A DNA stretch of 64,000 nt from Actinomadura opuntiae (GTDB lineage Bacteria; Actinomycetota; Actinomycetes; Streptosporangiales; Streptosporangiaceae). The position numbers and the translations under genes were made by a program. This document shows positions 7,666-56,319 of the stretch, piece after piece. Position 1 is the first letter of the stretch, and each line of letters starts with the position of its first letter. The DNA lies in assembly GCF_030283205.1 (NCBI RefSeq), contig NZ_JASNWF010000001.1, forward strand, positions 601,649 through 665,648. Reading direction: 5' to 3'. The notes below the pieces were generated by a model. The model ran no database searches. It saw only the letters and a list, made by a program, of their open reading frames with translations, and was not told the origin of the DNA.

Positions 7666-7721
7666 CGGTCACCTCGGGGTCGGGCCGGGCGGTGGGCGCC
7701 CGGCCGCGGGGGTCGGGACGG

Positions 7722-9041: not shown

Positions 9042-9081
9042 CGTGCGTCGCCGCTCCTTCCGCGGACCGCTGCGCGGTCTC

Positions 9082-9127: not shown

Positions 9128-9228
9128 CGCTTCGGAGCGGCCCTGTCAAGGGGCGGGCGCGGGTGGCGGCGGAATCGTTTCACACAGGGGATCGCCGTTT
9201 CCCTGTGGAAGGGTTACCGTTCCCGACC

Positions 9229-16815: not shown

Positions 16816-18242
16816 TGCCCGCCGGCGAGATCGTCCGGGAGAACCCGGCCCGGCCGGAGGAGGTCGTCGGCAGGGTCCCGGTGGCGGACGCGGCGGAGGT
16901 CGACCGGGCCGTCCGGGACGCCGAGGCGCGGCAGCGCGACTGGTGCCGCGTGCCGGTCGAGGAGCGGGCCGCCGCGCTGCTGCGGGCCGCCGAGGCCGTC
17001 GACGCGATGCCCGGCGTCGCCGAGCTGTTGGCCCGCGAGTCCGGCAAACCGGTCGCCGACTGCGCCGGGGAGATCCGGTTCGCCGCCTCCTACCTGCGCT
17101 GGGCCGCCGAGCACGCCCCGGCGGCGTACGCCGACCGGGAGACCGACGACGCCGCCGGACGGCTCGTCCTGCGGCACCGCCCGTACGGCGTGGTCGCGGC
17201 CATCACCCCGTGGAACGCGCCCATCATCCTCACCCTGCTCAAGGCGGGGCCCGCGCTGGCGGCGGGCAACACGGTCGTGGTCAAGCCGTCGCCGCTCGCG
17301 CCGCTCGTGGTCGGCCGCGTGCTGGAGGCGTTCCCGCCAGGGCTCGTCCGGGTCGTGCACGGGGGCGCCGCGACGGCGCGGGCGCTGGCCGGGCATCCCC
17401 GCGTGCACCGGGTCGCGTTCACCGGCGGCGCCGAGGCGGGCCGCGCCATCGGGACGGCCGCAGCCAAGGCGATCACCCCGGTGCTGCTGGAACTCGGCGG
17501 CAACGACCCGGTCGTGCTGCTGGACGACGCGGACCTCACCGACGCGGCGATGGACCGCCTCGTCATGGCGTCCTTCGCCACCGCCGGCCAGGTCTGCATG
17601 GCCGCCAAGCGTCTGTTCGCCCCGAGGTCGCGGCTGGCCGAGGTCCGTGACGCCTATGTCGCGGCGGCGCAACGGACGCTGGTGCTAGGCGACCCCCTGC
17701 ACCACGGCACGACGGTCGGCCCGGTCATCTCGGCCGACGCCGCCGACCGGGTTCGGGGGCTCGTCGCCGATTCGGGGCGGCGGGGCGGCACCGTCGCGGA
17801 GCTGGGCGCCGTGCGGATCGAGATGGAGCGCGGGTATTTCGTCCGGCCCTCCCTGGTCACGGACGTGGACGACGACGCGCCGGTGGTCGCCGGGGAGCAG
17901 TTCGGCCCAGTCGTACCGCTGCTGGCCTACGACGACGAGGACGAGGTGGTGGAGCGCGCCAATGCCGGCGACCTCGGTCTCGGCGCCTCGGTATGGTCGG
18001 CCGACGAGGACCGCGCGTTCGCGTTCGCCCGCCGGTTCGAGGCCGGCTTCACGTTCGTCAACACCCACAACCGCACCGGGATGGCGCTGCGCGCGCCGTT
18101 CGGCGGGGTGAAGCGCAGCGGGCACGGCCGCGAGTACGGCGCCGAGGGCCTGCTGGAGTACGTGCAGACCTGCGCGATCCACGCACCCGCCGCGTTCCGC
18201 GCGGGCGGCACCGGGATGAGCGCGGGCGCGTATCCCTCGTGA
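16815..18242 (+). CDS. second aldehyde dehydrogenase of the operon
   Basis: 475 residues with the complete aldehyde dehydrogenase motif set: ITPWNAP, VVKPSPLAP, AFTGGAEAG, catalytic Glu in LELGGNDP and Cys in GQVCMAAKR. It is clearly a different subfamily from the one at 14228, whose Cys motif is atypical, so the operon probably oxidises two aldehydes, or one enzyme acts on a semialdehyde. It is the last gene of the operon; the following operator and a new promoter separate it from the secreted hydrolase. Confidence 0.88.
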   Translation: MPAGEIVRENPARPEEVVGRVPVADAAEVDRAVRDAEARQRDWCRVPVEERAAALLRAAEAVDAMPGVAELLARESGKPVADCAGEIRFAASYLRWAAEHAPAAYADRETDDAAGRLVLRHRPYGVVAAITPWNAPIILTLLKAGPALAAGNTVVVKPSPLAPLVVGRVLEAFPPGLVRVVHGGAATARALAGHPRVHRVAFTGGAEAGRAIGTAAAKAITPVLLELGGNDPVVLLDDADLTDAAMDRLVMASFATAGQVCMAAKRLFAPRSRLAEVRDAYVAAAQRTLVLGDPLHHGTTVGPVISADAADRVRGLVADSGRRGGTVAELGAVRIEMERGYFVRPSLVTDVDDDAPVVAGEQFGPVVPLLAYDDEDEVVERANAGDLGLGASVWSADEDRAFAFARRFEAGFTFVNTHNRTGMALRAPFGGVKRSGHGREYGAEGLLEYVQTCAIHAPAAFRAGGTGMSAGAYPS

Positions 18243-18344
18243 CCGCCCGTCGCCGCACCGTCCGGCGCATCGTTACCCGATCGCGGCGCCGCCCCATTGC
18301 CTTCCCGGCCCCCGAGGTGCTTAATAAGGGGGCCATATTGGAAA

Positions 18345-18369
18345 CTCTGTTTCCATAGAAGAAACAGAG
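18345..18369. promoter_or_regulatory. IclR-type operator before the secreted hydrolase
   Basis: Perfect 9-bp arms CTCTGTTTC and GAAACAGAG flank seven bases, the longest dyad of the set. It ends 20 bp before ATG 18390 and so overlaps the expected promoter/leader. Confidence 0.78.
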
Positions 18370-18389: not shown

Positions 18390-19370
18390 ATGCGCGCCGT
18401 CCACGCCGTCCGGACCCTCGCCGCGACCAGCGCCGCCACCCTCGCCCTGACCGCCCTCGGCCCCCTCTCCCCCGCCCACGCCGCCGCCACCCGCGTCCAG
18501 ACCACCGTCGAGATCCGCTGCGCGTTCACGATCCTCAACCAGAGCGCGGACTGGTACTTCCCCGCCGGCGCGCCGCAGGGCCTGGTGTGGCTCCAGCACG
18601 GCTTCGCCCGCTCCAACGACAACGTCGCGGACCTGGCGTCCAAGTACGCCGCAGCCGGTTACCTCGTCTTCGCCCCCACCCTCCCCACGGCGAACCTGTA
18701 CGGCTGCACCCTGCAGAACCTCGGCAACAACACCGACTTCCTGGGCAACGTCGCCGACCTGTTCGCCAAGATGTCCGACCCGTCCGACAAGCTCGGCCGC
18801 AGCTTCGCCAAGGCGAAGGCCCAGGCCGGACGGTCCGACCTCGCGCTGCCGGGCTCGCTGGTCTTCTCCGGGCACTCGGCCGGCGGCGAGGCCGTCAGCT
18901 ACGTGGCCGGGCGGCTGCGCAGCGACAGTCCGGCGGCGTGGGCGCGGCTGCGCGGCCTGGTCCTGCTCGATCCGGTGAAGTCGTTCATCGGGAACAACCT
19001 CGACACCGGGCTGAAGGCGGTCGACGGCACCGGCCGCATAGTCCGCACGATCTCCGGGCCCGACGGCACCTGCAACAACAGCGGCAGCGGGACGGACGCC
19101 GTCCAGGCCGACGTGCACGCCCCGTTCGTCGGCGTCCGGCTGACCGACGGCGAGCACACCGACGCCGAGGGCGCCAGTACCGACGCCGTCGGGACCCTCG
19201 CCTGCGGCACGCCGCAGGCGAAGAACGTCGAGGCCCTGCAGACGTTCGCGGTCGCCTGGGCGAAGGACGCCTTCAACGGCACGCAGACCGCCGCGTACCT
19301 GCCCGGCGGGTCGTATTACCAGAGCAGGCTCGGCTCCGGCCTGATCCAGACCCTGGCCGGAGCCTCCTGA
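18390..19370 (+). CDS. secreted alpha/beta hydrolase
   Basis: 326 residues. Sec signal peptide about 1-33 (ending AHAAA). The mature enzyme has VWLQHGFARS (oxyanion strand), and the elbow FSGHSAGGE places Ser at about 163. Four or more Cys residues suggest disulfides, as expected outside the cell. ATG 18390 has GGAGG five bases upstream. It stands alone between two operator-controlled operons and has its own operator. Its likely role is extracellular cleavage of an ester; chlorophyll or another lipid ester is possible. The substrate cannot be read from sequence. Confidence 0.82.
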   Translation: MRAVHAVRTLAATSAATLALTALGPLSPAHAAATRVQTTVEIRCAFTILNQSADWYFPAGAPQGLVWLQHGFARSNDNVADLASKYAAAGYLVFAPTLPTANLYGCTLQNLGNNTDFLGNVADLFAKMSDPSDKLGRSFAKAKAQAGRSDLALPGSLVFSGHSAGGEAVSYVAGRLRSDSPAAWARLRGLVLLDPVKSFIGNNLDTGLKAVDGTGRIVRTISGPDGTCNNSGSGTDAVQADVHAPFVGVRLTDGEHTDAEGASTDAVGTLACGTPQAKNVEALQTFAVAWAKDAFNGTQTAAYLPGGSYYQSRLGSGLIQTLAGAS

Positions 19371-19473
19371 CGCGTCCGCGTCCGGCGGACCGCCCGCCGG
19401 GTCCCGCGGCCGGAAGTTTCCGCCCGCGGGATCTGGCGGAGGGCGCGCCCCGATTGTAAAGTTTGGAAACAGC

Positions 19474-19490
19474 GTTTCGCTAGAGGAACC
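19474..19490. promoter_or_regulatory. IclR-type operator before the chlorophyll-catabolism-like operon
   Basis: GTTTC-GCTAGAG-GAACC keeps the 7-base spacing with one mismatch to GAAAC. It ends 10 bp before ATG 19501, directly upstream of GGGAGG. A GTTTGGAAAC dyad just upstream (19461-19470) may be a second half-site. Confidence 0.65.
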
Positions 19491-19500: not shown

Positions 19501-21135
19501 ATGGGTCCGGTCCGGGTGGCCGCCGTCCAGTTCGCGGTGGGCCCCGACGTCCCCGCCAACCTCGCCACCTGCCTGCGCATGGTGGACCGGGCGGTGGCCG
19601 AGGGCGCGCGCCTGATCGTCCTGCCGGAGTTCTGCAACCGCCTGTCCTGGTACGCCGACCGCGACGACGCCCGACGGCACGCCTGCGCCATCGGCGGCCC
19701 GTTCCTCACCGCCATCGCGGCCCGCGCCGCCGCGCACGGCGTCCACGTCAAGGCCAACGTGACGCTGGCCGGCGGCGACGGCCGGGTGACCGTGAGCAGC
19801 CTGCTGTACGGCCCGGACGGCGCGCTGCTCGGCCGCTCCGACAAGCTCACGCTGATGGGCGCCGAAGGCGACCACCTCGATCCGGGCACCGCCGCCGGCC
19901 CCGTCATCGCCACCCCGCACGGCCGGCTCGGCATGTACGCCTGCATGGAGGGCGTCACCAGCGACGTCCCCCGCGACCTGGCGGTGCGCGGCGCGCAGGT
20001 GCTGCTGAACAGCCTCAACTCGTTCGCCACCGACGAGGCGAGCCTGCACGTGCCGGTCCGCGCCGCCGAGAACCACGTGTGGGTGGTGGCGGCCAACAAG
20101 GTCGGCCCGCTGCTGCCCCCCGCCCTCCTGCCCGCGATCGCCGAGCGTCTCGGCGTCCCGCCGGACCTGCTGGACGGCGCGGGCGAGAGCCAGATCGTCG
20201 CCCCCGACGGGACAGTCGTCGCGAAGGGGCCGCGCACCGGCGAGGCCGTCGTCGTCGCCGACATCGACCCGTCGCTCGCCGACCGCAAGACCCGTCCCGA
20301 CGGCACCGACACGTTCGCGGCGCGCAGGCCGCGGTTGTACGCCCCGATCGCCGAGACGCCCCGCCCCCGCGCCGCCCCGCCGGGCGACGAGAAGGTGGAC
20401 GCGGCGGTCGTCCGCTCCCCAAAACTGGTGCGGCGGGCGGCGAAGGCGGGAGCCGAGCTGATCGTCCTGCCGGAGCTGGCGTTCGGTCCCGACGCCGATG
20501 CCGGCGCCGTCGTCGAGGAGCTTGCCGCCGCGCTCCACGGCACCACCGCCCATGCGGTGACCAGCGTGCGGGCAGGCGCCGCGCACGCCGCCTATCTGGT
20601 GAACGCGGACGGCCTGGCCGGACGCCAACCGCAACTGCACGCCAGTGCCCGGCACTCGGGCTGGGCGACGGAGTACGGCGAGCGGCTGGACGTCTTCACG
20701 CTCCCCTGGGGACGGCTCGCGCTCGTCACCGGCGACGACGCCCTCTACCCCGAGGTCTTCCGACTCGCCGCCATCGCCGACGCGGACGCCGTCGCGGTCC
20801 CGTTCACGCCCGCGCAGGACTGGGAGACCGCCCTCGGACTGCCCGAGCGCGCCGCCGAGAACCGGCTGAACGTCGTCGCCTCCGGACCGCGGGACGGCCT
20901 GATCCTGGCGCTCCCCACCGACTTCAGCCTCTGGACGTCGTGGCAGGGCCCGTTCGAGGGCCGCATCAGCCACCCCCTCGTCACCCGCGCCACCGAACCG
21001 CTCACCGTCGCGGCGATCCATCCCGCCCAGGCCGTCAACCGGCTCGTATCCAAGAACACCGACCTGGTCGGCGGGCGTCCCGCGCACGCGGTCGCCGCGC
21101 TGGCCGACGACGCACCGAGCGGAGCGCTCCGTTGA
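19501..21135 (+). CDS. tandem-domain nitrilase/carbon-nitrogen hydrolase
   Basis: 544 residues, about twice the usual length. Residues 1-290 are a complete carbon-nitrogen hydrolase domain with the triad Glu43 (LPEFCNR), Lys115 (SDKLTLM) and Cys148 (MYACMEG). Residues about 295-530 are a second copy that keeps the Glu (LPELAFG) but has Asp or Ala where the Cys should be (VTGDDALYPE), so it is probably non-catalytic. The family hydrolyses nitriles, amides or N-carbamoyl compounds. As first gene of a putative tetrapyrrole operon it may act on an amide or imide-derived fragment of pyrrole breakdown, which is inference. The operator and a GGGAGG support the start. Confidence 0.82.
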   Translation: MGPVRVAAVQFAVGPDVPANLATCLRMVDRAVAEGARLIVLPEFCNRLSWYADRDDARRHACAIGGPFLTAIAARAAAHGVHVKANVTLAGGDGRVTVSSLLYGPDGALLGRSDKLTLMGAEGDHLDPGTAAGPVIATPHGRLGMYACMEGVTSDVPRDLAVRGAQVLLNSLNSFATDEASLHVPVRAAENHVWVVAANKVGPLLPPALLPAIAERLGVPPDLLDGAGESQIVAPDGTVVAKGPRTGEAVVVADIDPSLADRKTRPDGTDTFAARRPRLYAPIAETPRPRAAPPGDEKVDAAVVRSPKLVRRAAKAGAELIVLPELAFGPDADAGAVVEELAAALHGTTAHAVTSVRAGAAHAAYLVNADGLAGRQPQLHASARHSGWATEYGERLDVFTLPWGRLALVTGDDALYPEVFRLAAIADADAVAVPFTPAQDWETALGLPERAAENRLNVVASGPRDGLILALPTDFSLWTSWQGPFEGRISHPLVTRATEPLTVAAIHPAQAVNRLVSKNTDLVGGRPAHAVAALADDAPSGALR

Positions 21136-21953
21136 AGGAAACCCCGGAGTCGAAAGAGACCCTTCGGCACGTCGAGCAGATGGTGGACGGCTCCCCCGTC
21201 GTCGACGTGACCGAGACCTTCCACCGCTACAAGACGATCCTCGCCGGGCTCAAGGCGCGGATCGACGCGCGGTTCGAGCTGGCACGCGACCCGTCCACCG
21301 AGGCCTTGGAGTCGTACGGGAACCCGCCCGAGAGCCCCGGCGGGAGCCTGGCCGCCTACAGCGGGCCCGAGGTCGACTGGATGGTCCACTCGTGGCTCGG
21401 CAACCCGGCGGCCGGGTTCGCCAACCTGCACCTGACGGTCTGGCTCGGCCCGCACGTCCGGGTGCCGCACCTGGGCATAGCGCTGCTGGTGTGGCCAGAG
21501 GGCTGGTTCTACGTCGACTCCGTGCCGCGCACCAACCTCCTGGCCGACGGCGCCTACTACGACGCGTACTACGAGCCGCTCAACAGCGGCTGGCTGGCGG
21601 TGCGGGAGGACAACCCGGAACTGGAGTGGTTCACCAGCCGGGCGGGGTTCATCCGGGCGAGCCTGTCCCCCACCGCGCACTGCTACTCGTTCCCCCGGTC
21701 GGACAAGAACATCGACCTGGTCGAGCGGCTGCTGACTGAGCACGTGGACCGCTGGCTCGGCTGGGTCGAGGCGGCCGAGCCCGTCCCCGACGCGGACTGC
21801 GCCGCGCTCGCCGCCGCCGACCTCGCCACCCGCCGCAACATTGCCGAACGCGACCCCGCGAACGTGATGGGCGTCCGCTACTTCGGGCAGGAGACCACCG
21901 ACCGCCTCGTCCGCGCCCTGTGGGGCGGCGACCGAGAGCTGCCCCGCCCGTGA
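21132..21953 (+). CDS. red chlorophyll catabolite reductase-like protein
   Basis: 273 residues from TTG 21132, which overlaps the previous stop (TTGA); ATG 21180 is an alternative. The order of motifs follows plant RCCR (ACD2): VDWMVHSWLG (about 81-90), an NLHLTVWLG strand, VPHLGIALLVWPEGWFYVDS, VPRTNLLAD, YYDAYYEPLNSG, then FIRASLSPTA (about 173-182) and the C-terminal RRNIAERDP...RYFGQETTDRLVRAL. RCCR is a ferredoxin-dependent bilin-reductase-fold enzyme that reduces the open-chain red chlorophyll catabolite made by pheophorbide a oxygenase. A PaO-like gene lies 950 bp downstream in the same operon. Similarity is judged from memory of the family; activity and the bacterial substrate are inferred. 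Confidence 0.8.
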   Translation: MKETPESKETLRHVEQMVDGSPVVDVTETFHRYKTILAGLKARIDARFELARDPSTEALESYGNPPESPGGSLAAYSGPEVDWMVHSWLGNPAAGFANLHLTVWLGPHVRVPHLGIALLVWPEGWFYVDSVPRTNLLADGAYYDAYYEPLNSGWLAVREDNPELEWFTSRAGFIRASLSPTAHCYSFPRSDKNIDLVERLLTEHVDRWLGWVEAAEPVPDADCAALAAADLATRRNIAERDPANVMGVRYFGQETTDRLVRALWGGDRELPRP

Positions 21954-22897
21954 ACGCGTCCGGCGGCACCGGCGTCCGGTCGATGTGGTGGTCGGCGGAC
22001 ACCGGCGGCACCGCGCCGTTCGGCACCGCGCACCTGAAGGTGTACTACCCGGCCCGCGCGGAGGGCACCGACGCCGAGCGGCTCTCCGGGGAGTTCCCGC
22101 CCGATCCGGCGGGCGCCCCGTACCCGGTCGTCGTGTTCTGCTCCGGCGTGAACGTCGAGCAGGCGGTCTACCGGCCGCTGGCGTCCGCCATCGCCGCCGC
22201 GGGCTTCGCCGTGGTGACGTTCGACCGGGTCGCGGAGCTTTTCGGCGGCCGGTACGGCCTCACCCCCGGCGTCGATCTGGACGCCGCACGGCCCGATGCC
22301 TACGGCACCCGGCCGACCTGCCCCGCCATTCCCGCCGTCCTCGACGCGCTCGGCGGGATCGACCTGCTCAAGGGGGCGCTCGACCTGGACCGCGTCGCGC
22401 TCGGCGGGCATTCGGCGGGCGGCACCGTGGTGCTCCAGTCGGCCCGGTTCATCCCCGGGGTCCGTGCCTGCTTCGCCTACGGGACGCACACCATGGTCGC
22501 CACCATGCTGGGTTGGCCCGCCGGCACCGTCCTGCCCGCGCAGGTCGACTGTCCGGTGCTGCTGGGCGTCGGCACGCGGGACGGCGTCATCATGGGCAGC
22601 TCCGACCGGTACGGCCAGGACGCCCCGTCCGACCCCGTCAGCCGCACCTTTACCGAGGCCCTGCACGACCCACGCGACCTGCTCGCCGTCGTGCGCGGCG
22701 CCAACCACTTCGCGGTCGCGGAGCCGGTCGACCCGACCGCCGCCCGCGCGTTCCTCGACCTGGAGCCCGAGACCGATCCCGCCGCGGCCCGCCGCGCCTT
22801 CACGGACCTGACCGTCGGCTTCCTGCGCGCCCACGTGCGCGGGGACGACGTGGCCCCGTCCGCCGACCCGACGCTCATCGACCTGCGGCGCCGATAG
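21950..22897 (+). CDS. cytoplasmic chlorophyllase/dienelactone-hydrolase-like enzyme
   Basis: 315 residues without a signal peptide. VVVFCSGVN forms the oxyanion strand, GGHSAGGTV places the nucleophile Ser at about 155, GTRDG is a probable acid and GANHFAV carries His. The sequence pattern is that of the chlorophyllase-like branch of alpha/beta hydrolases, and its sequence resembles the secreted enzyme at 1515. GTG 21950 overlaps the RCCR-like stop (GTGA), and the PaO-like gene follows 8 bp later. In this context removal of phytol or of the C13 methyl ester from a chlorin is a sensible guess. Confidence 0.75.
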   Translation: MNASGGTGVRSMWWSADTGGTAPFGTAHLKVYYPARAEGTDAERLSGEFPPDPAGAPYPVVVFCSGVNVEQAVYRPLASAIAAAGFAVVTFDRVAELFGGRYGLTPGVDLDAARPDAYGTRPTCPAIPAVLDALGGIDLLKGALDLDRVALGGHSAGGTVVLQSARFIPGVRACFAYGTHTMVATMLGWPAGTVLPAQVDCPVLLGVGTRDGVIMGSSDRYGQDAPSDPVSRTFTEALHDPRDLLAVVRGANHFAVAEPVDPTAARAFLDLEPETDPAAARRAFTDLTVGFLRAHVRGDDVAPSADPTLIDLRRR

Positions 22898-22905
22898 GAG
22901 CCACC

Positions 22906-24069
22906 ATGCTCAAGAACTTCTGGTACGCGGTCGAGTTCGCGGACCGCGTTTGCCGGGCCCCGAGGCGCGTGACATGCCTGGGCCAGGACTTCGTCCTGTA
23001 CCGCAAGCGCGACGGCGAGGTGGTGTGCCTGTCCGACCTGTGCGTGCACCGGGGAGCCGCGCTGTCGGCGGGCAAGCTGATCGGCGACAAGATCGCCTGC
23101 CCGTACCACGGGTGGCAGTACGAGCCGGACGGCGCGTGCAGCAGGATCCCCGCGAACCCGCCGGGACGCGGCATCCCGAAGAAGGCCCGCGTCGACTCCT
23201 ATCCCATCCGCGAGGAGTACGGGCTGATCTGGGCGTTCCTCGGCGACCTGCCGGAGCACGAGCGTCCGCCCATCCCGCACTTCCCCGAGCACGACGACCC
23301 GTCCTTCGCCACCGTGTACGTCGAGATGGTCATCGAGGCCAACTATGAGCGGACGTTCGAGAACGTCGTGGACGCCTCGCATACCCCGTTCGTGCACGGC
23401 ACCCGGTTCGGCAACCCGGACAAGCCGGAGATCCCCGACTACGAGATCGTCCAGGACGACTGGTCGGCGGTCGCCGACATCGGCCTCAGCCCGCCGCCCG
23501 CGAAGGGCCTGTGGTCGCGGCTCTACAAGGAGAAGCCGGAGGAGGTGCTGGTCACCAACGGCTGGTACCTGCCCAACATCGTGAAGCTACACGTCCGGCT
23601 GCCGTTCGGCGACATGATCCTCTACGACCACAACGTCCCTCTGGATCGGAACCGCACCCTCGTCAAGATCGTCGGGTACCGGAACTTCTTCACCGGCCGG
23701 TGGGCCGACCGCGACGCCCGCAAGCGGATCCGCAGCATCCTGCTGCAGGACAAGCCGGTCGTCCAGAGCCAGCGGCCGGAGCTGCTGCCCTACGACCTGG
23801 CCGACGAGCTGCACTTGCGCAGCGACTCCCTGCAGGTCGCCTACCGGCGGCGGCGCCGGCAGCTGATGGCCGCAGGCTGGTGGATCGGCGACGAAGCGCA
23901 CCTGCCGGTCAACGGCGCGCGCGGCAGCGCGACCGTGATCCCCTCCCCCGCCCGGCGGGAGGACCCGGAGCTGGCCCGCGCCTGGCAGCACCGCGCCCGC
24001 GGCGGCGACCCGGTCCCCGCGGATGCTCCCGCAGGCGAGAACACCGCCACCGAAGGAGAGAACGAGTGA
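22906..24069 (+). CDS. pheophorbide a oxygenase-like Rieske oxygenase
   Basis: 387 residues. An N-terminal Rieske [2Fe-2S] domain has CVHRG (Cys46, His48) and CPYHGWQY (Cys65, His68). A mononuclear-iron domain follows, with the N-x2-D-x2-H-x4-H motif (Asn153, Asp156, His159, His164; ENVVDASHTPFVH). The opening NFWYAVEF and the Rieske segment resemble the PaO/TIC55/chlorophyllide a oxygenase group. PaO opens the chlorin ring of pheophorbide a with oxygen and ferredoxin electrons. There is no membrane helix at the C-terminus, unlike plant PaO, so the protein would be soluble. No reductase or ferredoxin gene is nearby. The start has TAGGAG upstream. The Rieske assignment is firm and the ring-opening role is inference from neighbours. 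Confidence 0.82.
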   Translation: MLKNFWYAVEFADRVCRAPRRVTCLGQDFVLYRKRDGEVVCLSDLCVHRGAALSAGKLIGDKIACPYHGWQYEPDGACSRIPANPPGRGIPKKARVDSYPIREEYGLIWAFLGDLPEHERPPIPHFPEHDDPSFATVYVEMVIEANYERTFENVVDASHTPFVHGTRFGNPDKPEIPDYEIVQDDWSAVADIGLSPPPAKGLWSRLYKEKPEEVLVTNGWYLPNIVKLHVRLPFGDMILYDHNVPLDRNRTLVKIVGYRNFFTGRWADRDARKRIRSILLQDKPVVQSQRPELLPYDLADELHLRSDSLQVAYRRRRRQLMAAGWWIGDEAHLPVNGARGSATVIPSPARREDPELARAWQHRARGGDPVPADAPAGENTATEGENE

Positions 24070-24812
24070 GCGTGTCGCCGCCCAAGGCACTGAGCGACCG
24101 GACGCTGGCGGTGCTGGCCGGCGTCGAGAAGCTGGCGACGGTCCGCGAGAAGGACCTCATCAGCCCGATGTTCCCCGAGCCGGTCGGCGCGCTGACGGTG
24201 CTGCGCGGCGAGCGGATCGCCAAGGTCGTCCGCATCGGCCTGACCGTGGAGCAGATCGGCATGGACAGCCACATGATCTTCGCGTTCACCGGCGCGGACT
24301 CGGCCGTCCCGCACTTCACGCTCGACTCGGTGCGGGCCGACGGCTACCTCGCCTACCACATCGACCTCGTGCCGCGCGCCGACCTGGGCGCGCACCTGGA
24401 GTACGTCAACGCGGTGTTCCAGCCGCTCACGCCGGTGTACGAGGAGGTCCGGGAGCGGTTCGGCCCGTCCACGGCCGCGATCGGCCCGCGCCAGCACGCC
24501 ATGATGTCGCCCTGGATGCTCGTCGACCGGGCCGACGAGGAGCACTTCGCGGCGATGGGCGCCTACCTCGACCGCTACGTCGAGCACTGGCGCGACCTGC
24601 TGGTGAAGGACGTCCCCGACGACGTCCGCACCACGCTCGCCGACACCGACCTCGCCGCGCGCGACGCCCGCAACCGCGCCGCCCTGTTCAGCCCGGAGGT
24701 CGACCCGGTGTGGGGGAACGTCGCCCGGCTGCTCGGCGACGAACAGGCTGAGGAGTTGCGCGCCGAGCTGCTGACCAACGACCTGCCGGGAGGGGAGCGC
24801 GCCGATGCCTGA
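24066..24812 (+). CDS. second RCCR/bilin-reductase-fold protein
   Basis: 248 residues. It has the RCCR-like core VPHFTLDSV (about 81-89), YHIDLVPRADLG (about 97-108), an EYVNAVFQPLTPVYEE helix and MMSPWMLVDRADEEH, followed by a helical C-terminus. It is much diverged from the protein at 21132, so it is an old paralogue, not a recent copy. Either it reduces a later linear tetrapyrrole, or the two proteins form a heteromer. GTG 24066 overlaps the PaO-like stop (GTGA) with a GAAGGAGAG upstream, giving translational coupling to the presumed producer of its substrate. Confidence 0.7.
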   Translation: MSVSPPKALSDRTLAVLAGVEKLATVREKDLISPMFPEPVGALTVLRGERIAKVVRIGLTVEQIGMDSHMIFAFTGADSAVPHFTLDSVRADGYLAYHIDLVPRADLGAHLEYVNAVFQPLTPVYEEVRERFGPSTAAIGPRQHAMMSPWMLVDRADEEHFAAMGAYLDRYVEHWRDLLVKDVPDDVRTTLADTDLAARDARNRAALFSPEVDPVWGNVARLLGDEQAEELRAELLTNDLPGGERADA

Positions 24813-25755
24813 GCCCAGCGAGTGGCAGAGCCGGATCGAGGGCGAATGGCACGGCCGCCCGTCGCTGTTCGACGCCACCGGCACCTGGCGCGGATACGAG
24901 GACATCCGCCGGTCGTCGGTCTTCGAAGACGGCGTCACCACGTACTACATGGACGGCGGGCTGGAAGGCGGCGGTCCGCTCGCCGGACGGTTCCGCCTCG
25001 GCGCACCGTTCGCGTTCGGCGTCACCGACTCCGACAGCGACCGGGTCTACACCGGTCCCGACTTCCACGGCACCGGCCAGCCCTACGGCGGGTTCGTCGA
25101 CGCGCATTACTACGGCCCGGGCTGGCAGGCCGACCTCAACACCTGGAACCACGTCCTGCCGGACGGTGAAACGCAGGTGTATTCGTCCACGCTGTACCAG
25201 GGCTGGACGGTCGTGGGCTGCTTCAACGGCGTCTACAAGCGCAGTACCGACTACGACTCCAACGCCGAGACCAGGGACGCCATCGGCCGGTTCCTCACGG
25301 CCGAGACCCGCAACGGCCCGGTCCCCTACATCCTCCCGACCAAGCAGCGCGGGGCGTACAGCGGAACGTGCGAGTTGTGGGGGGCTGACCAGAAACCGGC
25401 CGGCGAGGTCACGGTCTCGATCGAGCTGCAACCCCTCGACCTGCTGCGCACCCGCCAGCACGTCACCTGGACCGGCGCCGTCGACCGGACCTACACCGTG
25501 GAGGCCCGGCGCGACGGGTTCCGCTCCTTCTACGAGGGCCCGGACGCCTGGGGCAACGCGCAGGCGTTCGGCCGGGCCAACTACCCCGTCCTGCACTTCA
25601 CCGACGTGTGGAAGGTCAAGGGACGCGAGTTCATGATCGACACGGCGCCGGGGATGAGCGCGGGCCGGACCCTCACCGTGGTGTACGAGCTGTTCAAGGG
25701 CAACGTCCTGGACGCCGTCCTGCACGGCGTCTTGACCTGGGAGGCCGCCGCGTGA
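24805..25755 (+). CDS. unrecognised beta-rich protein of the tetrapyrrole-type operon
   Basis: 316 residues, with no signal peptide and no membrane segment. It is rich in Trp, Tyr and Gly with alternating beta-strand patterns (GEWHGRPSLFDATGTWRGYE at the start, later YYMDGGLEGGG, LHFTDVWKVKG). The opening W-x-G motif and strand-rich body suggest one or two lipocalin-like barrels, a fold used for tetrapyrrole carriers and phycobilin lyases, but I cannot assign a family. It overlaps the preceding gene by eight bases with an AGGGGAG site and is followed by a GTGA overlap, so it belongs firmly to the pathway. Candidate roles: binding, transport or isomerisation of a bilin intermediate. Confidence 0.7.
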   Translation: MPEPSEWQSRIEGEWHGRPSLFDATGTWRGYEDIRRSSVFEDGVTTYYMDGGLEGGGPLAGRFRLGAPFAFGVTDSDSDRVYTGPDFHGTGQPYGGFVDAHYYGPGWQADLNTWNHVLPDGETQVYSSTLYQGWTVVGCFNGVYKRSTDYDSNAETRDAIGRFLTAETRNGPVPYILPTKQRGAYSGTCELWGADQKPAGEVTVSIELQPLDLLRTRQHVTWTGAVDRTYTVEARRDGFRSFYEGPDAWGNAQAFGRANYPVLHFTDVWKVKGREFMIDTAPGMSAGRTLTVVYELFKGNVLDAVLHGVLTWEAAA

Positions 25756-26531
25756 CCGGACCGGCGGTGGTCGTCACCGGCGGCACCCGCGGGATCGGTC
25801 TCGGCCTCGCGCGGGAGTTCCTGGCGCGGGGCGCCCGCGTCGCCGTCTGCGGCCGGACGCGCGAGTCGGTCGACAAGGCCCTCGCCGAACTCGGCGACGG
25901 CGCGGTCGGGGCGGTCTGCGACGTGGCCGACCGGGACCAGGTGCAGGCGCTCTGGGACGCGGCGGCCGAGGCGTTCGGGCGAATCGACCACTGGATCAAC
26001 AACGCCGGGGTCTCCACGCCGCGCCGTCCGCTCACCGAACTGCCCGCCGGGCAACTCGAGACCCTGGTGGCGGCGAACCTGCTCGGCGTGATGCACGGCA
26101 GCGCCGTCGCGGTGCGCGGGATGACCGCTCAGGGCGGCGGCACCGTCTGGAACATGGCCGGGCTCGGCAGCGACGGCCGCACCGTCCCCGGCCTGATCGC
26201 CTACGGGGCGACCAAGCGCGGCACCGGCTACCTCACCTCCGGCCTTGCCGAGGAGGTCCGGGACGGCCCGGTCAAGGTCGCGCACCTGTCGCCCGGCATG
26301 GTCGTCACCGACCTGCTGACCAGCGGCTACTCCCCCGACGAACTGGAGAAGGCCAAGAAGGTCTTCAACATCCTCGCCGACCGGGTGGAGACGGTGACGC
26401 CCTGGCTGGCCGACCGGGTGCTGGCCGGGACGAAGAACGGCGGGACGGTCGCCTGGCTCACCACACCCAAGATCGTGGGCCGGTTCCTGCTCGCCCCGCT
26501 GCGCAAGCGCGACCTGTTCGGTGCCTCATGA
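25752..26531 (+). CDS. short-chain dehydrogenase resembling chlorophyll b reductase NYC1/NOL
   Basis: 259 residues. Classical SDR features: TGGTRGIG (residues 9-16), WINNAG (81-86), Ser about 140, and Tyr151/Lys155 in YGATK. Beyond the generic fold, it follows the NYC1/NOL pattern: RxxESVD after the first strand, WINNAG, VWNMAGLGSDG in place of the usual SS motif, LSPGMVVTDLL, VFNILADRVETVTPWLADRV and a late LTTPKI. NYC1/NOL reduce the C7 formyl of chlorophyll b to hydroxymethyl, the entry step of plant chlorophyll b breakdown. GTG 25752 overlaps the previous stop. Family similarity is recalled, not computed; the substrate is inferred. Confidence 0.8.
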   Translation: MTGPAVVVTGGTRGIGLGLAREFLARGARVAVCGRTRESVDKALAELGDGAVGAVCDVADRDQVQALWDAAAEAFGRIDHWINNAGVSTPRRPLTELPAGQLETLVAANLLGVMHGSAVAVRGMTAQGGGTVWNMAGLGSDGRTVPGLIAYGATKRGTGYLTSGLAEEVRDGPVKVAHLSPGMVVTDLLTSGYSPDELEKAKKVFNILADRVETVTPWLADRVLAGTKNGGTVAWLTTPKIVGRFLLAPLRKRDLFGAS

Positions 26532-27142
26532 GCGACTACCCGCCCGCGCTCGCCGCCGAGGACTTCGTGCCGGTGGCGCTCACCGCGCTCGGCGTGGCGC
26601 TGCTGCGGCGCCGGCACCCGCTGGTGCCCACCGCCGCCGCACTGATCGTGGCGGGCGGGTTCGCCAAGGCCGCCTGGAAACTGATCGTCGCCCTGGACGG
26701 CCCGGACCTGCCCTGGCTGCACGGCGCACTGTTCCCGCTGCTCGCGACCGGCTTCACCGCGCTGGCGGTCGCGCTGTCGCGGGAAGCGGCCCGTCCGCCG
26801 CATCCCGCTGCGTTCGCGGTGCCGCTGGCGGCGGCGCTCGCGGCCTCGGCGGCGCAGCGCGACACCTGGCCCGCGATGGTCTGGACGATCATCGCGGTGA
26901 CCGTCGCCGCCGTCCTGCTGCTGCGGTCCGCCGCACGAGCGGGCGACCGGCTCGCGGCGACGCTCTTCGGCCTCTGGCTGGCCGGACAGTACGTGCTCGG
27001 CCCGATGGCGGCGCGGGCCGAGCAGTCCACCGCCTTGCAATGGACGGAGCAGTCCTGCAACACGCTAGCCCAGGCGGCCTTCGCGTTCGCCGCCTGGCGG
27101 CTCACCACGACGGCCCGGAGCGAGGAGGGAGTCGCCGCATGA
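26528..27142 (+). CDS. small integral membrane protein in the catabolic operon
   Basis: 204 residues with about six hydrophobic helices, no signal peptide and no recognised domain. Arg/Lys clusters between helices follow the positive-inside rule. It overlaps the SDR stop (ATGA) and the next start (GCATGA), so it is made together with the enzymes. It could be a transporter or a membrane docking site for enzymes that act on a lipophilic pigment. Nothing in the sequence decides this. Confidence 0.7.
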   Translation: MSDYPPALAAEDFVPVALTALGVALLRRRHPLVPTAAALIVAGGFAKAAWKLIVALDGPDLPWLHGALFPLLATGFTALAVALSREAARPPHPAAFAVPLAAALAASAAQRDTWPAMVWTIIAVTVAAVLLLRSAARAGDRLAATLFGLWLAGQYVLGPMAARAEQSTALQWTEQSCNTLAQAAFAFAAWRLTTTARSEEGVAA

Positions 27143-27882
27143 CGGACGCACTCGGCTGGCGGCGCAAGTTCGGCGTGATCGCACCGTCCACCAACACCAT
27201 CGTCGAACCGGACTTCCACCGGATGGGCGTCCCCGGTGTGACGTCCCACTTCTCCCGCATCCACATCCGCGATCAGAACATGGCCGGGGATGCGGGGATG
27301 GAACGGCTGCTGGAACAGATCCGCGACGAGATCGGTGCGGCCTGCGAGCGGGTCCTGACCTGCGAGCCCGACTACATGGTGATGGGCATGTCCGCCGAGA
27401 CGTTCTGGGGCGGCGTCGAGGGCAACAAGCAGTTCGTCAGGCAGATCCACGACATCACCGGGCTGCGGGTCGCGACCGGCGCCGAAGCGTGCGAGCGCGC
27501 CCTGAAGCTTTACGGGGCGCGGCGCATCGGCGTCGTCACCCCCTACCAGCCGGTCGGCGACGCCAACGTCCGCCGGTTCTTCACCGACATCGGCTTCGAG
27601 GTCGACCGGATCATCGGGCTGAAGTGCCCGACCGCCGTGTCGATCGCGCACGTCACCGAGGCCGAGCTGCGCACCGCGCTGCGCGCGCTGGCCGAGGGCG
27701 AGGTCGACGCCCTGGTCCAGTGCGGCACCAACCTGTCGATGGTCGCGACGGCGGACGAGGCCGAACGGTGGCTGGGCCTGCCCGTCATCGCCATCAACGC
27801 CGCCACCTGGTGGATGGCGCTCCGCGACAACGGCATCGACGACAAGGTGTTCGGCGCCGGCTCCCTGCTCCGCGACCACTGA
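27139..27882 (+). CDS. maleate isomerase/arylmalonate decarboxylase-family protein
   Basis: 247 residues of the Asp/Glu racemase superfamily. PSTNTIVEPDF at the N-terminus and QCGTNLSM with Cys195 at the C-terminus mark the maleate isomerase-AMDase branch. The first catalytic Cys of true maleate isomerases is absent: that loop reads GMSAETFWGG (about 83-92). Only one Cys remains, as in arylmalonate decarboxylases. So it may decarboxylate or isomerise a substituted malonate or maleate. Maleimide-type fragments are known oxidation products of tetrapyrroles, and the carboxylated C13 side ring of chlorins is a malonate-like acid, so either reaction could fit here; both are inference. Confidence 0.75.
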   Translation: MTDALGWRRKFGVIAPSTNTIVEPDFHRMGVPGVTSHFSRIHIRDQNMAGDAGMERLLEQIRDEIGAACERVLTCEPDYMVMGMSAETFWGGVEGNKQFVRQIHDITGLRVATGAEACERALKLYGARRIGVVTPYQPVGDANVRRFFTDIGFEVDRIIGLKCPTAVSIAHVTEAELRTALRALAEGEVDALVQCGTNLSMVATADEAERWLGLPVIAINAATWWMALRDNGIDDKVFGAGSLLRDH

Positions 27883-27889
27883 CCCGGCC

Positions 27890-28693
27890 ATGACCAACGG
27901 CGGCTACGTCGACACCGAGTGGGGCCAGGTCCACTACCGGATCAGCGGCGCCTCCGGCCCCTGGATCGCCCTGTTCCACGAATCTCCACTGTCCTCCCGC
28001 GTCTACGAGCAGGTACTGCCCCAGCTGGGCCGGCAGGCCCGCGCCGTCGCGTTCGACACCCCCGGCTACGGCGCGTCCGACCCGCCGCCCGGTCCCGACT
28101 TCGAGCTCCCCGACTACGGCCGCGTGCTGGCGGAGGCGGCGGCCCGGATCGGAATGGAGAAACCGGTCCTCGGCGGCGTGCACAGCGGGGCCTCCCTCGC
28201 GCTCGCGGCCGCCGCCCACCTCCCCCCGGCGGGCCTGATGCTGAGCGGCGTCCCGCTGTTCGACGCCGAGGAGCGGGCACGCCTCATCGCCGGCTGGACG
28301 CCCGAGGCGCCGTTGGACGACCGCGGCTCCCAGTTCGCCTGGGCCGTCGAACGCTACCTGCGCACATGTGGACCCGACCTCCCCGGCGAGCTGCTCCACC
28401 TGGCCGTGGTCGAGTTGATGCGGGTCGCGGACCGCTATGCATGGGGCTACCAGGCCGCGTTCCGGTACGACCCGTCCGAGGTGCTCGCCGCGGCGGACGT
28501 GCCGGTCCTCCTGCTGAACGCCGAATCAGACAGGCTCGCGGCCAAGGACGCCGCCGCCCTCGAGTTGGCGCGCGACGCCCGCCTCGTCGTCCTGCCGGGC
28601 CTGCCCGGCCAGCCGCATCTCCGGGCCCCCGCCGACTTCGCCGCAGCCCTGCTGGCCTTCGCCCAAGAGGTGAACAGGCTCGGCAGGAACTGA
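27890..28693 (+). CDS. alpha/beta hydrolase, last gene of the catabolic operon
   Basis: 267 residues, cytoplasmic. FHESPLSSRVYEQV follows the oxyanion strand, GGVHSGASLAL carries the nucleophile Ser (about 99), and a late His lies in GQPHLRAP. The cap region is small. It begins 8 bp after the previous stop, so it is part of the same transcript. It differs from the two chlorophyllase-like hydrolases in having an HSG elbow; a C-C bond or methyl-ester hydrolase is equally possible. After it 28694-28892 holds no gene I can recognise. Confidence 0.78.
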   Translation: MTNGGYVDTEWGQVHYRISGASGPWIALFHESPLSSRVYEQVLPQLGRQARAVAFDTPGYGASDPPPGPDFELPDYGRVLAEAAARIGMEKPVLGGVHSGASLALAAAAHLPPAGLMLSGVPLFDAEERARLIAGWTPEAPLDDRGSQFAWAVERYLRTCGPDLPGELLHLAVVELMRVADRYAWGYQAAFRYDPSEVLAAADVPVLLLNAESDRLAAKDAAALELARDARLVVLPGLPGQPHLRAPADFAAALLAFAQEVNRLGRN

Positions 28694-29166: not shown

Positions 29167-30351
29167 TCAAGTAGCGAGCTCTGTCCGGTGTGGCCAGGCG
29201 GTTGCTTCGTCGTAGGATGTGCCGGTCTTGAGACAGCCGTGCAGGATGCCGACGAGGCGGTTGGCGAGTTGGCGCAGGGCGGTGTTGTAGTCGGCGTCCC
29301 GGGCTCGTTGTTTGTCGTAGTAGGCGCGGGCGCCGGGTGAGACGTTGATCGCTGTGGACGCCTGGGTCATGAGCGCGTCGATGAGCCGGTCGTTGTGCAC
29401 GAACCGTGCAGCGACGACCTTCTTCTTGCCCGAGGCCCGGGTGATCGGGCTGGTGCCGGCGTAGTTCTTGCGGGCTTTGGCGGAGGCGTAACGGTCGGGA
29501 TCGTCGCCGAACTCTGCGAGCACCCGGGCGCCGAGGATTGCTCCCAGCCCTGGCTGGGAGGTGATGATTTCAGCGGCCGGGTGCTGCCCGAAATGAGCCT
29601 CGACTTCCTTGCGCAGAGTCGTGACCTGCTCGTCCAAAGACCTGAGGACGGCGACCAGGGCGCTGGTCGAGGCCGCGTAGGCGGCGGTGACAACCGCTGG
29701 CTGGCCCAGGTGCTTGGTTCGTAGCGCGGCCTGTATCCGCGCGGCCTTCTCGGCCACCTTGTGGCGGCGCGCCCGCTTGAGCACCGCGCTGATCTGGGTG
29801 ATGGTCAGCTTCGCTGCGGAGACCGGGTCAGGCGCCTTGGCCAGAAGTTCCAGCGCGTCCGGGGCGTCCAGATCCTCGAACGCCTTGAGGGCTGCGGGGA
29901 AGTAGTCCCTCAAGGCGTGCCGGAGCCGCTGAGTGTGGCGGGTGCGTTCCCAGATCAGCGTCTTGTGCATTCGCGCCACGACCTTGACCGCCTCGGCCTG
30001 CGCGGTATCCCCGGCGACGGGCCGCAACTGATGTGAGTCGGTGCGCACCATGTCGGCCAGCATGTGCGCGTCAGCGGCGTCGCTCTTGGCCCCGGACACG
30101 CCCAGCCGTTCGCGATAGCGGGCCGCCTGCAGCGGGTTGACTGCGAGCACCGTGTATCCGGCGGCGACCAGCGCCAGCACCCACGGGCCCCGGTCGGTCT
30201 CGATCCCGACAACCACCTCCGCATTCTCCTCGGCGGCGTCTCCGGCCTGCTCGGCGATCAGGGCATGCAGGCGCGTCATTCCCGCAGCGCCCTCCGGCAG
30301 CCGAGCCTTGGCCAGCCGCCGGCCCGAGGCGTCCATCACCTCGACATCGTG
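29167..30351 (-). CDS. IS110-family transposase, exon 2
   Basis: Main part (394 residues) of a DEDD transposase; exon 1 is 32512-32550. Joining the exons gives AETHHDVEVMDASG across the junction with the frame kept, for a total of about 407 residues, the usual length. Visible features: the RuvC-like DEDD residues (Asp in GDDWA from exon 1, Glu in VVGIETDRG, Asp in AKSDAADAHMLAD), a coiled middle, and a Transposase_20 domain with TSQPGLGAILGARVLAEFGD and YAGTSPITRASGK. If the intron splices, the protein is intact. Without splicing, translation could only begin inside exon 2 at GTG 30339 and would miss the first catalytic Asp. Confidence 0.85.
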   Translation of the reverse strand, partial: HDVEVMDASGRRLAKARLPEGAAGMTRLHALIAEQAGDAAEENAEVVVGIETDRGPWVLALVAAGYTVLAVNPLQAARYRERLGVSGAKSDAADAHMLADMVRTDSHQLRPVAGDTAQAEAVKVVARMHKTLIWERTRHTQRLRHALRDYFPAALKAFEDLDAPDALELLAKAPDPVSAAKLTITQISAVLKRARRHKVAEKAARIQAALRTKHLGQPAVVTAAYAASTSALVAVLRSLDEQVTTLRKEVEAHFGQHPAAEIITSQPGLGAILGARVLAEFGDDPDRYASAKARKNYAGTSPITRASGKKKVVAARFVHNDRLIDALMTQASTAINVSPGARAYYDKQRARDADYNTALRQLANRLVGILHGCLKTGTSYDEATAWPHRTELAT

Positions 30352-30415
30352 GTGGGGTCGGCACGGAGCGCGGTGACGGGATCTCTCCCGTTCCGTTTCT
30401 CCGTGCCGCCCTCCC

Positions 30416-30450
30416 GAACCGGACGTGCGAGTTGGCCCCGCATCCGGCTC
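30416..30450 (-). ncRNA. group II intron domain V
   Basis: A 35-nt hairpin that is the catalytic core of the ribozyme. It has the lower GAGCCGGA/UCCGGUUC stem with one G-U pair, the two-nucleotide bulge and the short upper stem-loop, placed some 65 nt before the 3' splice site with domain VI between, as in active introns. Confidence 0.8.
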
Positions 30451-30480
30451 TCCACAAGTCCCGTTGAGCTGTTGCCGTCT

Positions 30481-31911
30481 TCAGCGTGTGCTGGGCCAAG
30501 GAGATGGGATCTTCGTCCCTCGGGGGAGGTAGCGCGTGGTGACTACCGAGCCGGGGTTGAACAGGACGACTTGCCCATCGTGCGGCCACCAGCGGCCGTC
30601 GCAGAAGCGGCGACGCAGTTCCTTCCAGCCCGCGTTGGGGTATTTGCGCCTCAGCCACCCGAATACCTGACGCCAGACGATCATGCGCAGGTATTGGAAG
30701 GCGCGGGCGGAGACCCCGGGCCGGAAGTAGGCGGTCCAGCCCCGCAGCACCTGGTTGAGCTTGTGCAGCAGGACTGCCAGCGGCAGGCTCACGTTCATCC
30801 GGCAGATCGCCTTGGTCTTGGCCTTGATGGACCGGAGTGCCTTCTTGGCCGGGTAGTTGTAGACGTACTGCCGGTCGGTCCCTCGCTTCCGGTGGCGCTG
30901 GATGCGCCAGCCGAGGAAGTCCAGGCCCTCGTCGATGTGGGTGATCAAGGTCTTCTCCTCCGAAAGCCGCAGGCCGACGGTGGAGAGGACGTCCGCCACT
31001 TCGGGGAGCAGCGCCTCGGTGTGTTCCCGAGTCCCCGAAACCAGGATGACGAAGTCGTCCGCATACCGGATCAACCGGTAGTTGGGCAGCCCCTTCTGGC
31101 GTCGGGTCCAGCGCTGTTTCGTGGTCGAACGCGGCCCGCCCGGCGCCTGAGCGAAGTGCTCATCCAGGACCGACAGAGCCACGTTGGCCAGCAACGGAGA
31201 CAAGATCCCCCCTTGCGGGGTGCCGGTGACGGTCTCCTTGGACGTGCCGACCTCAGTGAGGATTCCCGCCTTCAGGAATGCCTTCACCAGCGCGAGCACC
31301 CGCTTGTCCCCGATCCGTCTGCGCACCCGGTCCATCAGGGCCGAGTGGGAGATCTCATCGAAGCAGGCCGTGATGTCGTCCTCCAGCACCCATTCGTAGG
31401 TCTTGGACGCCAGAAAACGGGTCTCGGCCATTGCGTCATGTGCCCGCCTGTTAGGCCGAAAGCCATACGAGCACGGAGCAAAGTCCGCCTCGAAGATCGG
31501 CTCCAGCACCAACTTCAAGGACGCCTGCACCACCCGGTCAGCAATCGTCGGAATCCCGAGCCGACGACGCTTCCGCGTCCCCGGCTTGGGAATCAACCGC
31601 TCCCGGACCGGCACGGGCCGAAAGCTCCGTTCCCGGAGTTGCTCACGCAACCCGGCCAGGAACTCCTCGGTCCCGATCCGCTCACGGACGAAGACGGCGG
31701 TCATCCCGTCGACCCCGGCCGAGCGTGCGCCCTTGTTGCCCGCTACCCGCTCCCAGGCCATCAGCAGAAACCCGGGATCGGTGACGAGGTTGAACAGATC
31801 GTCGAATCGACGATGAGGATCGTCGTTCGCCCAACGGTGCAGCTTGGTCTGGATCTCCAGTACCCGACGCTCGGCCTGCAACAGGCCAGACGGCAGATCA
31901 CTCGTATTCAC
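30481..31911 (-). CDS. ltrA: group II intron reverse transcriptase/maturase
   Basis: 476 residues. Reverse transcriptase blocks are visible: AGNKGARSAGVDGMT (about 58-72), RRLGIPTIADRVVQ, FRPNRRAHDA, TGTPQGGILSPLLANV and the active-site RYADDFVIL. A maturase (X) domain follows, with LRGWTAYFRPG and a GIIM-type C-terminus. No HNH endonuclease is present and the protein ends soon after the maturase part. It helps splice the host intron and copies it into new sites by target-primed reverse transcription. It is encoded inside domain IV of the intron. The large open frame on the opposite strand is a shadow. Confidence 0.92.
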   Translation of the reverse strand: MNTSDLPSGLLQAERRVLEIQTKLHRWANDDPHRRFDDLFNLVTDPGFLLMAWERVAGNKGARSAGVDGMTAVFVRERIGTEEFLAGLREQLRERSFRPVPVRERLIPKPGTRKRRRLGIPTIADRVVQASLKLVLEPIFEADFAPCSYGFRPNRRAHDAMAETRFLASKTYEWVLEDDITACFDEISHSALMDRVRRRIGDKRVLALVKAFLKAGILTEVGTSKETVTGTPQGGILSPLLANVALSVLDEHFAQAPGGPRSTTKQRWTRRQKGLPNYRLIRYADDFVILVSGTREHTEALLPEVADVLSTVGLRLSEEKTLITHIDEGLDFLGWRIQRHRKRGTDRQYVYNYPAKKALRSIKAKTKAICRMNVSLPLAVLLHKLNQVLRGWTAYFRPGVSARAFQYLRMIVWRQVFGWLRRKYPNAGWKELRRRFCDGRWWPHDGQVVLFNPGSVVTTRYLPRGTKIPSPWPSTR

Positions 31912-56206: not shown

Positions 56207-56319
56207 CCGGGCACGGCCGACCGAGCTCCGGCTGACCTGCCCCTTCCGGACAGGCTTCCGACCGCCACTGCCGCGGCAGGCAAACCCACCCCGCAGTAAC
56301 CGAGAAAGGTCACCCGACA

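Follow-up and report, generated by a model that had tools for sequence, protein, structure and literature searches.

A 64,000-nucleotide stretch of Actinomadura opuntiae DNA (contig NZ_JASNWF010000001.1; hereafter the window), from a genome of 10.5 Mb and 97.88% completeness, carries at 19501–28693 an operon whose products include two proteins of the RCC reductase (RCCR)/bilin-reductase superfamily, a Rieske oxygenase and a predicted lipocalin. We propose that this operon belongs to a conserved actinobacterial gene set that degrades an exogenous tetrapyrrole, most likely a chlorophyll-derived one, under a predicted IclR-type repressor, a reading to which we give about an even chance. The assignment to protein families, the conserved order of the genes and their marker site are established. 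The set is real and conserved, has an operator of its own and is larger than in the original prediction, which was made from the DNA letters and their translations; it extends further left to take in an IclR gene at 10696, monooxygenases, two aldehyde dehydrogenases, a secreted hydrolase and WxL/sortase surface genes.

The core operon consists of ten tightly packed plus-strand genes, as first described. Seven of the 9 junctions overlap by 4 or 8 bases; at the other two, 8 and 7 bases separate the genes. The genes are listed here with the basis of each assignment in brackets.

19501–21135, +, nit, tandem carbon-nitrogen (CN) hydrolase (CN_hydrolase, 150.2 bits)
21132–21953, +, rccA, RCC-reductase family protein (PF06405 over cut-off; PDB profile match to RCCR)
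21950–22897, +, abh1, alpha/beta esterase-like hydrolase with a GHSAGG motif (sub-cut-off chlorophyllase similarity)
22906–24069, +, Rieske non-haem iron oxygenase with a VanA_C domain (Pfam, ligand residues)
24066–24812, +, rccB, second, divergent RCCR/bilin-reductase-fold protein (profile comparison, fold model)
24805–25755, +, two-barrel lipocalin of DUF3598/BFA1 fold, predicted bilin carrier (fold model)
25752–26531, +, short-chain dehydrogenase/reductase, SDR (generic SDR models)
26528–27142, +, predicted small membrane protein (sequence)
27139–27882, +, amd, arylmalonate decarboxylase/Asp-Glu racemase superfamily enzyme with a single active-site Cys195 (PF17645)
27890–28693, +, abh2, alpha/beta hydrolase, a lineage-specific accessory (profile scan)

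Conservation of the gene set

Conservation was assessed over 145 confirmed loci from a contig scan, the best 80 of which were used for all counts out of 80. The rccA gene was present in 80, the Rieske gene in 79, rccB, SDR and nit in 78 each, amd and the lipocalin gene in 77 each, and abh1 in 76. The membrane protein gene was found in 54 loci (between SDR and amd in 49 and directly after amd in 5) and abh2 in 6, and for this reason the firmly conserved core comprises eight genes. These eight were complete, in order and on one strand in 72 of the 80 loci, and the order rccA–Rieske–rccB–lipocalin was kept in 76. The eight exceptions to the eight-gene order were L050, L059, L063, L064, L068, L082, L094 and L118, among which L059 is a 5.7-kb contig and L094 and L118 are without most of the cluster. 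Counts for the genes upstream, which are reduced by a 10-kb flank limit, were 71 for aldehyde dehydrogenase B, 65 for the FAD monooxygenase, 64 for aldehyde dehydrogenase A, 52 for the acyl-CoA-dehydrogenase (ACAD)-fold protein, 36 for IclR, and 34 each for the flavin reductase-HMGL protein and the secreted hydrolase.

Matches of the rccA type occurred in 18 of 198 genomes of relatives, own genome included. Across an even draw of the phylum, PF06405 matched in 3 of 396 genomes, again own included, and in none of 14 controls; the two draws differ and so do not gauge the sensitivity of the PF06405 model. In two genomes outside the class, rccA, the Rieske gene, rccB and the lipocalin gene lie adjacent at 44–50% identity; nit accompanies them in both genomes, in one case at the edge of the locus, and amd in one of the two. 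A hydantoinase B/oxoprolinase gene, which would fit lactam hydrolysis, lies near the core cluster in an out-of-class locus (L122:3615–5312). Rieske homologues were also found in 5 of 5 members of a genus with genomes of 1–1.7 Mb, whose loci add an isochorismatase, an HMGL lyase, a PEP-mutase/isocitrate-lyase-type lyase and amd.

Two proteins of the RCCR/bilin-reductase fold

The rccA product scored 40 bits against PF06405 (RCC_reductase, cut-off 24.9) and was the sole PF06405 match in the genome; its PDB profile match was Arabidopsis RCCR (E 1.4e-14), and 30 of 30 members of its family matched PF06405. Against the ferredoxin-dependent bilin reductase model PF05996 (Fe_bilin_red) it stayed under the cut-off, at 18.9 of 31 bits, and weak matches to this model were seen in 21 of the 30 family members. 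Its best named match was in Actinomadura nitritigenes, at 95% identity. A third relative of rccA, more divergent (about 27%), occurs in the small genomes G171 and G154 (L038 and L039); L038 matches PF06405, and no other operon gene was found adjoining.

Conserved residues were counted over the window and loci L034–L119, after rows differing in length by at least 60 or at least 80 residues had been dropped; L034 and L113 seem to be one locus entered twice. Counted along the alignment, D241 of rccA occupies the position of Asp291 in Arabidopsis RCCR (AtRCCR), the C-terminal catalytic Asp, and is Asp in 87 of 87 rows. The position of AtRCCR Glu154, a residue with a role in the plant enzyme, holds Ala117 (Ala in 84 of 87 rows), and because this alanine replaces Glu154 we do not claim plant RCCR activity itself for rccA.

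For rccB, the window protein gave no PF06405 match at E ≤ 1, and 29 of the 34 members of its family did, the best at 3.4e-6. Profile comparison placed it as a divergent second member of the RCCR family (98.4%). Its predicted structure (pLDDT 93.5) retrieved RCCR or bilin reductases at all Foldseek ranks from 1 to 23. D87, conserved in 82 of 82 rows, aligns to the AtRCCR Glu154 position, and D213, equally conserved in 82 of 82, aligns to the Asp of the DP motif in tomato phytochromobilin synthase; when aligned to RCCR, it misses the Asp291 position by 2 columns. The rccA and rccB families fall on two sides of one tree branch (SH-aLRT 99); the tree groups AtRCCR with rccA, yet on a long branch that the tool marks as unsure. 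The likeness to RCCR first proposed for the products of 21132 and 24066 was therefore borne out, the former falling inside the RCCR/bilin-reductase superfamily by PF06405 and PDB profile, the latter by profile comparison and fold.

The Rieske oxygenase and the other core proteins

The Rieske protein matched PF00355 at 79.6 bits and carries a VanA_C domain. Its Rieske ligands C46, H48, C65 and H68 and its iron ligands D156, H159 and H164 were each present in at least 97% of 82 rows, and its best solved matches were NdmA, SxtDIOX and SxtT, with NdmB and DdmC also among them. The PaO domain PF08417 was found in none of 24 Rieske family members scanned and nowhere in the genome, in a search where two control genomes gave matches, one of them above the cut-off. 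The absence of PF08417 from these members and the genome rules out a PaO-type identity, and the original prediction of a PaO-like product at 22906 gives way to a place among unrelated Rieske oxygenases.

Other plant-like labels in that prediction proved to be generic. The abh1 product is a serine hydrolase with conserved S155 and H253, and it reached 24.4 of the 26 bits needed for chlorophyllase (PF07224), over 40 residues, so that a chlorophyllase assignment by profile was rejected as below the Pfam cut-off. The product of 25752, which had been likened to NOL, matched generic SDR models and nothing more specific among the families listed. In domain 1 of nit, the residues E43, K115 and C148 were each kept in at least 97% of 76 rows.

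The amd product scored 72.4 bits against PF17645 (cut-off 25.9). Its C195, found in 79 of 82 rows, matches the position of the active-site Cys188 of arylmalonate decarboxylase. Maleate isomerase has two active-site cysteines, and the first is absent from amd, where M84/S85 occupies that position in 82 of 82 rows; this identity was accordingly rejected. Of the maleate/malonate-type enzyme proposed earlier, the arylmalonate decarboxylase family stands (PF17645, C195) and the maleate isomerase part does not.

The confident predicted model of the lipocalin shows a two-barrel fold resembling DUF3598/BFA1, with 13% and 9% identity to the DUF3598 protein Npun_R4044 (2o62) and BFA1 (5yvf), respectively. 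No DUF3598 Pfam match was obtained at E ≤ 1 among 35 members scanned, and the lipocalin profile matched no PDB sequence. The predicted folds of both rccB and the lipocalin thus rest on confident models, and a role of the latter as bilin carrier is predicted.

An operator marks the set

A short operator site recurs in the set, which also includes an IclR gene.

19465–19479, no strand, operator GGAAACAGCGTTTCG before the core operon (site upstream of nit in relatives; one of only 3 exact genome sites)
18340–18354, no strand, perfect operator palindrome before the secreted hydrolase gene (pattern search of window and genome)
9093–9107, no strand, operator between the divergent WxL surface gene and sortase gene (pattern search of window and genome)
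10696–11517, –, IclR-family regulator, predicted operator binder (Pfam IclR_C, 159.5 bits)

Allowing up to 2 mismatches, the window contains 5 copies of the pattern GGAAACNNNGTTTCC / GGAAACnnnGTTTCC against 1.08 expected, and 0 of 100 shuffles reached 5. Its exact form SGAAACNNNGTTTCS has 3 copies genome-wide, every one inside the window, and the reversed control pattern has 0. Eleven relatives carry 2–7 exact copies per genome; the reversed control gave 1 copy in one of these genomes and 0 in the other ten. A plus-strand nit start was found in 76 of the 80 loci, and each of these 76 has a site, up to 2 mismatches allowed, in the 250 bp upstream of nit, compared with 0.85% of mono-nucleotide shuffles of those stretches; being related by descent, the 76 loci are not independent. 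Among 20 loci printed, the position was –31 to –60 from the nit start in the 19 with nit. These results demonstrate that the operator originally noted at 19474 is real and occupies 19465–19479. In L050, where the Rieske and lipocalin genes have moved to the opposite strand, an exact operator precedes the start of the Rieske gene by a calculated distance of about 280 bp.

Operators away from the cluster in relatives lie upstream of conserved genes, including those for a Rossmann dehydrogenase (six genomes) and a CitE/HpcH-type lyase (three). Further off-cluster neighbours are an FAD oxidoreductase, a DUF4437 cupin, an isochorismatase, WxL surface proteins and sortase. Sites beside unrelated-looking genes in relatives may be due to chance. 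Judged from the position of its gene, the IclR protein is predicted to bind the operator, and the gene set to be a regulon controlled by an IclR-type repressor.

Upstream and surface genes

To the left of the core operon, the gene set comprises the following.

1–481, +, DUF4437 cupin, C-terminal part; the gene starts left of the window
669–1208, +, isochorismatase-family hydrolase (57% to a protein of relative G080, encoded there by a gene with an operator)
5540–7665, –, WxLIP-like protein plus another surface protein (tblastn matches to neighbours of the regulon in relative G047)
7722–9041, –, WxL-domain surface protein adjoining an operator (PF13731, 32.5 bits)
9229–9891, +, sortase (PF04203, 112.8 bits)
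11677–12924, +, flavin reductase fused to an HMGL-like lyase domain (Pfam)
12948–14231, +, ACAD-fold protein, likely a flavin-dependent monooxygenase partner of the flavin reductase (profile scans)
14228–15676, +, aldehyde dehydrogenase A (Pfam)
15676–16815, +, FAD_binding_3 monooxygenase (Pfam)
16815–18242, +, aldehyde dehydrogenase B (Pfam)
18390–19370, +, predicted secreted serine hydrolase with a signal-like N terminus and a GHSAGG motif (sequence)

The operator at 9093 is flanked on both sides by the WxL/WxLIP-like surface proteins and sortase (5540–9891) and links this surface complex to the catabolic genes. The same arrangement recurs around the operator in relatives G047 and G038; the WxLIP_PGBD match of the WxLIP-like protein in G047 was under the cut-off. 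The secreted hydrolase at 18390 gave no Pfam and no PDB match. At 1251–1434 the Rossmann dehydrogenase of the regulon survives as a mere fragment in two frames, longer homologues adjoining operators in six relatives, and a CitE-type gene lies about 12 kb left of the window in the same genome.

A proposed route of breakdown

An insoluble ester, for instance chlorophyll or pheophytin, would fit both the conserved esterase-like genes and the surface and secreted genes at the operator. Within our preferred reading, and as part of the chance given to it, we consider it quite possible, at somewhat under an even chance, that the regulon mineralises chlorophyll completely and is the first bacterial one to do so, by surface capture and de-esterification, opening by a non-PaO Rieske enzyme, reduction by the RCCR pair with the lipocalin as bilin-binding carrier, and conversion of the pyrroles, by way of imides and substituted maleates, into central metabolites. 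Outside the cell, the insoluble pigment would be captured and de-esterified through the WxL surface proteins and the secreted hydrolase, leaving abh1 to take off a remaining ester inside. The macrocycle or bilin would then be attacked by the Rieske enzyme, which would either oxidise or open it. Supplied with electrons by a ferredoxin whose gene lies elsewhere, rccA and rccB would reduce one bilin intermediate after another, and the lipocalin would bind the hydrophobic bilin from step to step. Cleavage of the bilin bridges would fall to the two-component and FAD monooxygenases, and oxidation of the formyl ends to the aldehyde dehydrogenases. The pyrrole lactam or imide rings would be opened by the CN hydrolase and partners of isochorismatase or amidohydrolase type, and the substituted dicarboxylates would finally be turned into central metabolites by amd and lyases of the HMGL or CitE type. 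From the Rieske reaction onwards, the order of steps is itself a proposal. The route would likely end at small acids, and pigment breakdown would likely serve the cell as food.

The general idea of bacterial tetrapyrrole catabolism, put forward in the original prediction as chlorophyll, pheophorbide or bilin breakdown, gained in strength; the plant PaO pathway being copied step for step found no support. The plant analogy is partly right: it holds for the reductase family, is plausible for the general chemistry, is wrong for the Rieske family and is unproven otherwise. The Mg-dechelatase SGR (PF12638) had 0 matches in the genome and 0 in the control genomes also, a result that counts neither way.

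Alternative explanations

The regulon might instead degrade environmental haem-type bilins (biliverdin, bilirubin, urobilin) or phycobilins, with the reductases saturating and the oxygenases cutting them. The fold is common to bilin reductases, rccA has its weak Fe_bilin_red matches, and rccB keeps both acidic positions, D87 and D213. We nevertheless consider this substrate rather unlikely, since rccA lies above the RCC_reductase cut-off and below that of Fe_bilin_red, and since haem bilins offer no ester to the conserved esterase-like hydrolases. The genome also has no haem oxygenase (PF01126), a model that gave matches in 3 of the controls, and a bilin route fed by haem oxygenase was rejected on this ground. 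Another candidate, which we judge unlikely, is the phyllobilins; these colourless plant bilins end up in leaf litter, their macrocycle already open. Plant TIC55 hydroxylates and MES16 demethylates phyllobilins, and here the Rieske enzyme would hydroxylate and abh1 demethylate in a like manner. A Rieske enzyme that is not PaO-type, the conservation of abh1 and the presence of CN-hydrolase and amidohydrolase-type genes would all be in keeping with such substrates. However, phyllobilins are already reduced and would presumably need the reductases less, and the same core occurs in genomes of 1–1.7 Mb, which look unlike those of leaf-litter soil bacteria.

That the cluster is biosynthetic and makes a bilin-derived natural product or pigment seems very improbable. 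The hosts are actinomycetes, rccA is clustered with oxygenases and an SDR, and the neighbouring ACAD-fold protein at 12948 is distantly like PigA and RedW; against this, no polyketide or peptide synthase or carrier protein was found among the window proteins scanned, the aldehyde dehydrogenases, CN hydrolase, isochorismatase and CitE/HMGL lyases suggest catabolism, and the core genes are present in the 1–1.7 Mb genomes too. The remaining explanation, improbable in our view, is that the RCCR-fold proteins act on a non-tetrapyrrole heterocycle as part of an ordinary operon for the catabolism of aromatics or alkaloids. Foldseek found the RCCR/bilin-reductase fold also in a chain of the FtsHi motor complex, which speaks for this explanation and is allowed for in the even chance given to our preferred reading. 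The Rieske, FAD and two-component monooxygenases with amidases also partly recall the riboflavin pathway, as excerpted from PMC12746152. On the other side, the fold is kept by two separate paralogues on either side of a well-supported branch, and the enzyme families of this fold named in the excerpts of PMC13193486 bind tetrapyrroles.

Relation to known systems

With the plant PaO/phyllobilin pathway, the cluster shares the combination of an RCCR-family reductase, a Rieske oxygenase and an esterase-like hydrolase. It differs in that its Rieske enzyme is outside the PaO family, that it has two RCCR-fold proteins rather than one, that it adds a lipocalin, monooxygenases, dehydrogenases, amidases and lyases that could degrade the product further, and that the genes form one cluster with its own operator. 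The ferredoxin-dependent bilin reductases and pre-PcyA clusters of heterotrophic bacteria, according to the portions of PMC10151467 at hand, have the same fold and likewise occur in non-photosynthetic bacteria; those clusters carry bilin-binding globins, V4R and iron-sulfur proteins, whereas the present one has a Rieske oxygenase, a two-barrel lipocalin and catabolic enzymes. RCCR serves there as outgroup, and the words Rieske and actinobacteri- are absent from the main text of that paper. The homologues in symbiotic Nostoc and Anabaena are likewise bacterial RCCR-domain proteins, with two adjacent genes in Nostoc, but their hosts are cyanobacteria and the excerpts of PMC2716323 describe no catabolic cluster; cyanobacterial homologues known at that time were those of plant-symbiotic Nostoc and Anabaena only. 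The riboflavin (vitamin B2) catabolic pathway is likewise a gene set that takes apart a heterocyclic cofactor, using a Rieske oxygenase and hydrolysis to arrive at small acids, although its substrate and enzymes are different and the excerpts of PMC12746152 mention no RCCR-fold protein.

Chlorophyll turnover has been estimated at 1 billion tons a year (PMC12930011, in excerpt), and plant breakdown leads to phyllobilins, with late-stage steps described as often unclear in the passages of PMC5853334 and PMC12930011 consulted. Bacterial phyllobilin breakdown is not mentioned in the excerpts of PMC4950323 or PMC8219035. Among the matches listed from open-licence papers, no bacterial RCCR operon or equivalent gene system was recognised by title or start of abstract, and no bacterial gene set for the later steps of chlorophyll breakdown was found. 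If our preferred reading is true, genes would be named for a global carbon and nitrogen flux, markers for metagenomes and enzymes acting on bilins would become available, and a whole branch of the RCCR family would lie outside plants; if full mineralisation is true, plant RCCR would have a catabolic bacterial sister family. The operator makes the reading directly testable, since the substrate should become apparent from whatever induces one short operon.

Other features of the window

No tRNA was found by ARAGORN within the window. Directly after the operon lie a transposase-like open reading frame (29167–30339, –) and a reverse-transcriptase-like one (30481–31911, –), both so labelled from reading the sequence, with an Rfam group II intron match between them at 30352–30452. 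Rfam also gave matches to Ms_AS-4, antisense to the transposase-like frame, and to the ALIL pseudoknot (29476–29557 and 33086–33214). Further right, an MFS transporter like aromatic acid/H+ symporters (49542–50804) scored below its model cut-off, and genes for a GguA/ChvE-like multiple-monosaccharide ABC transporter occupy 53313–57423, GguA scoring above the model cut-off and ChvE below.

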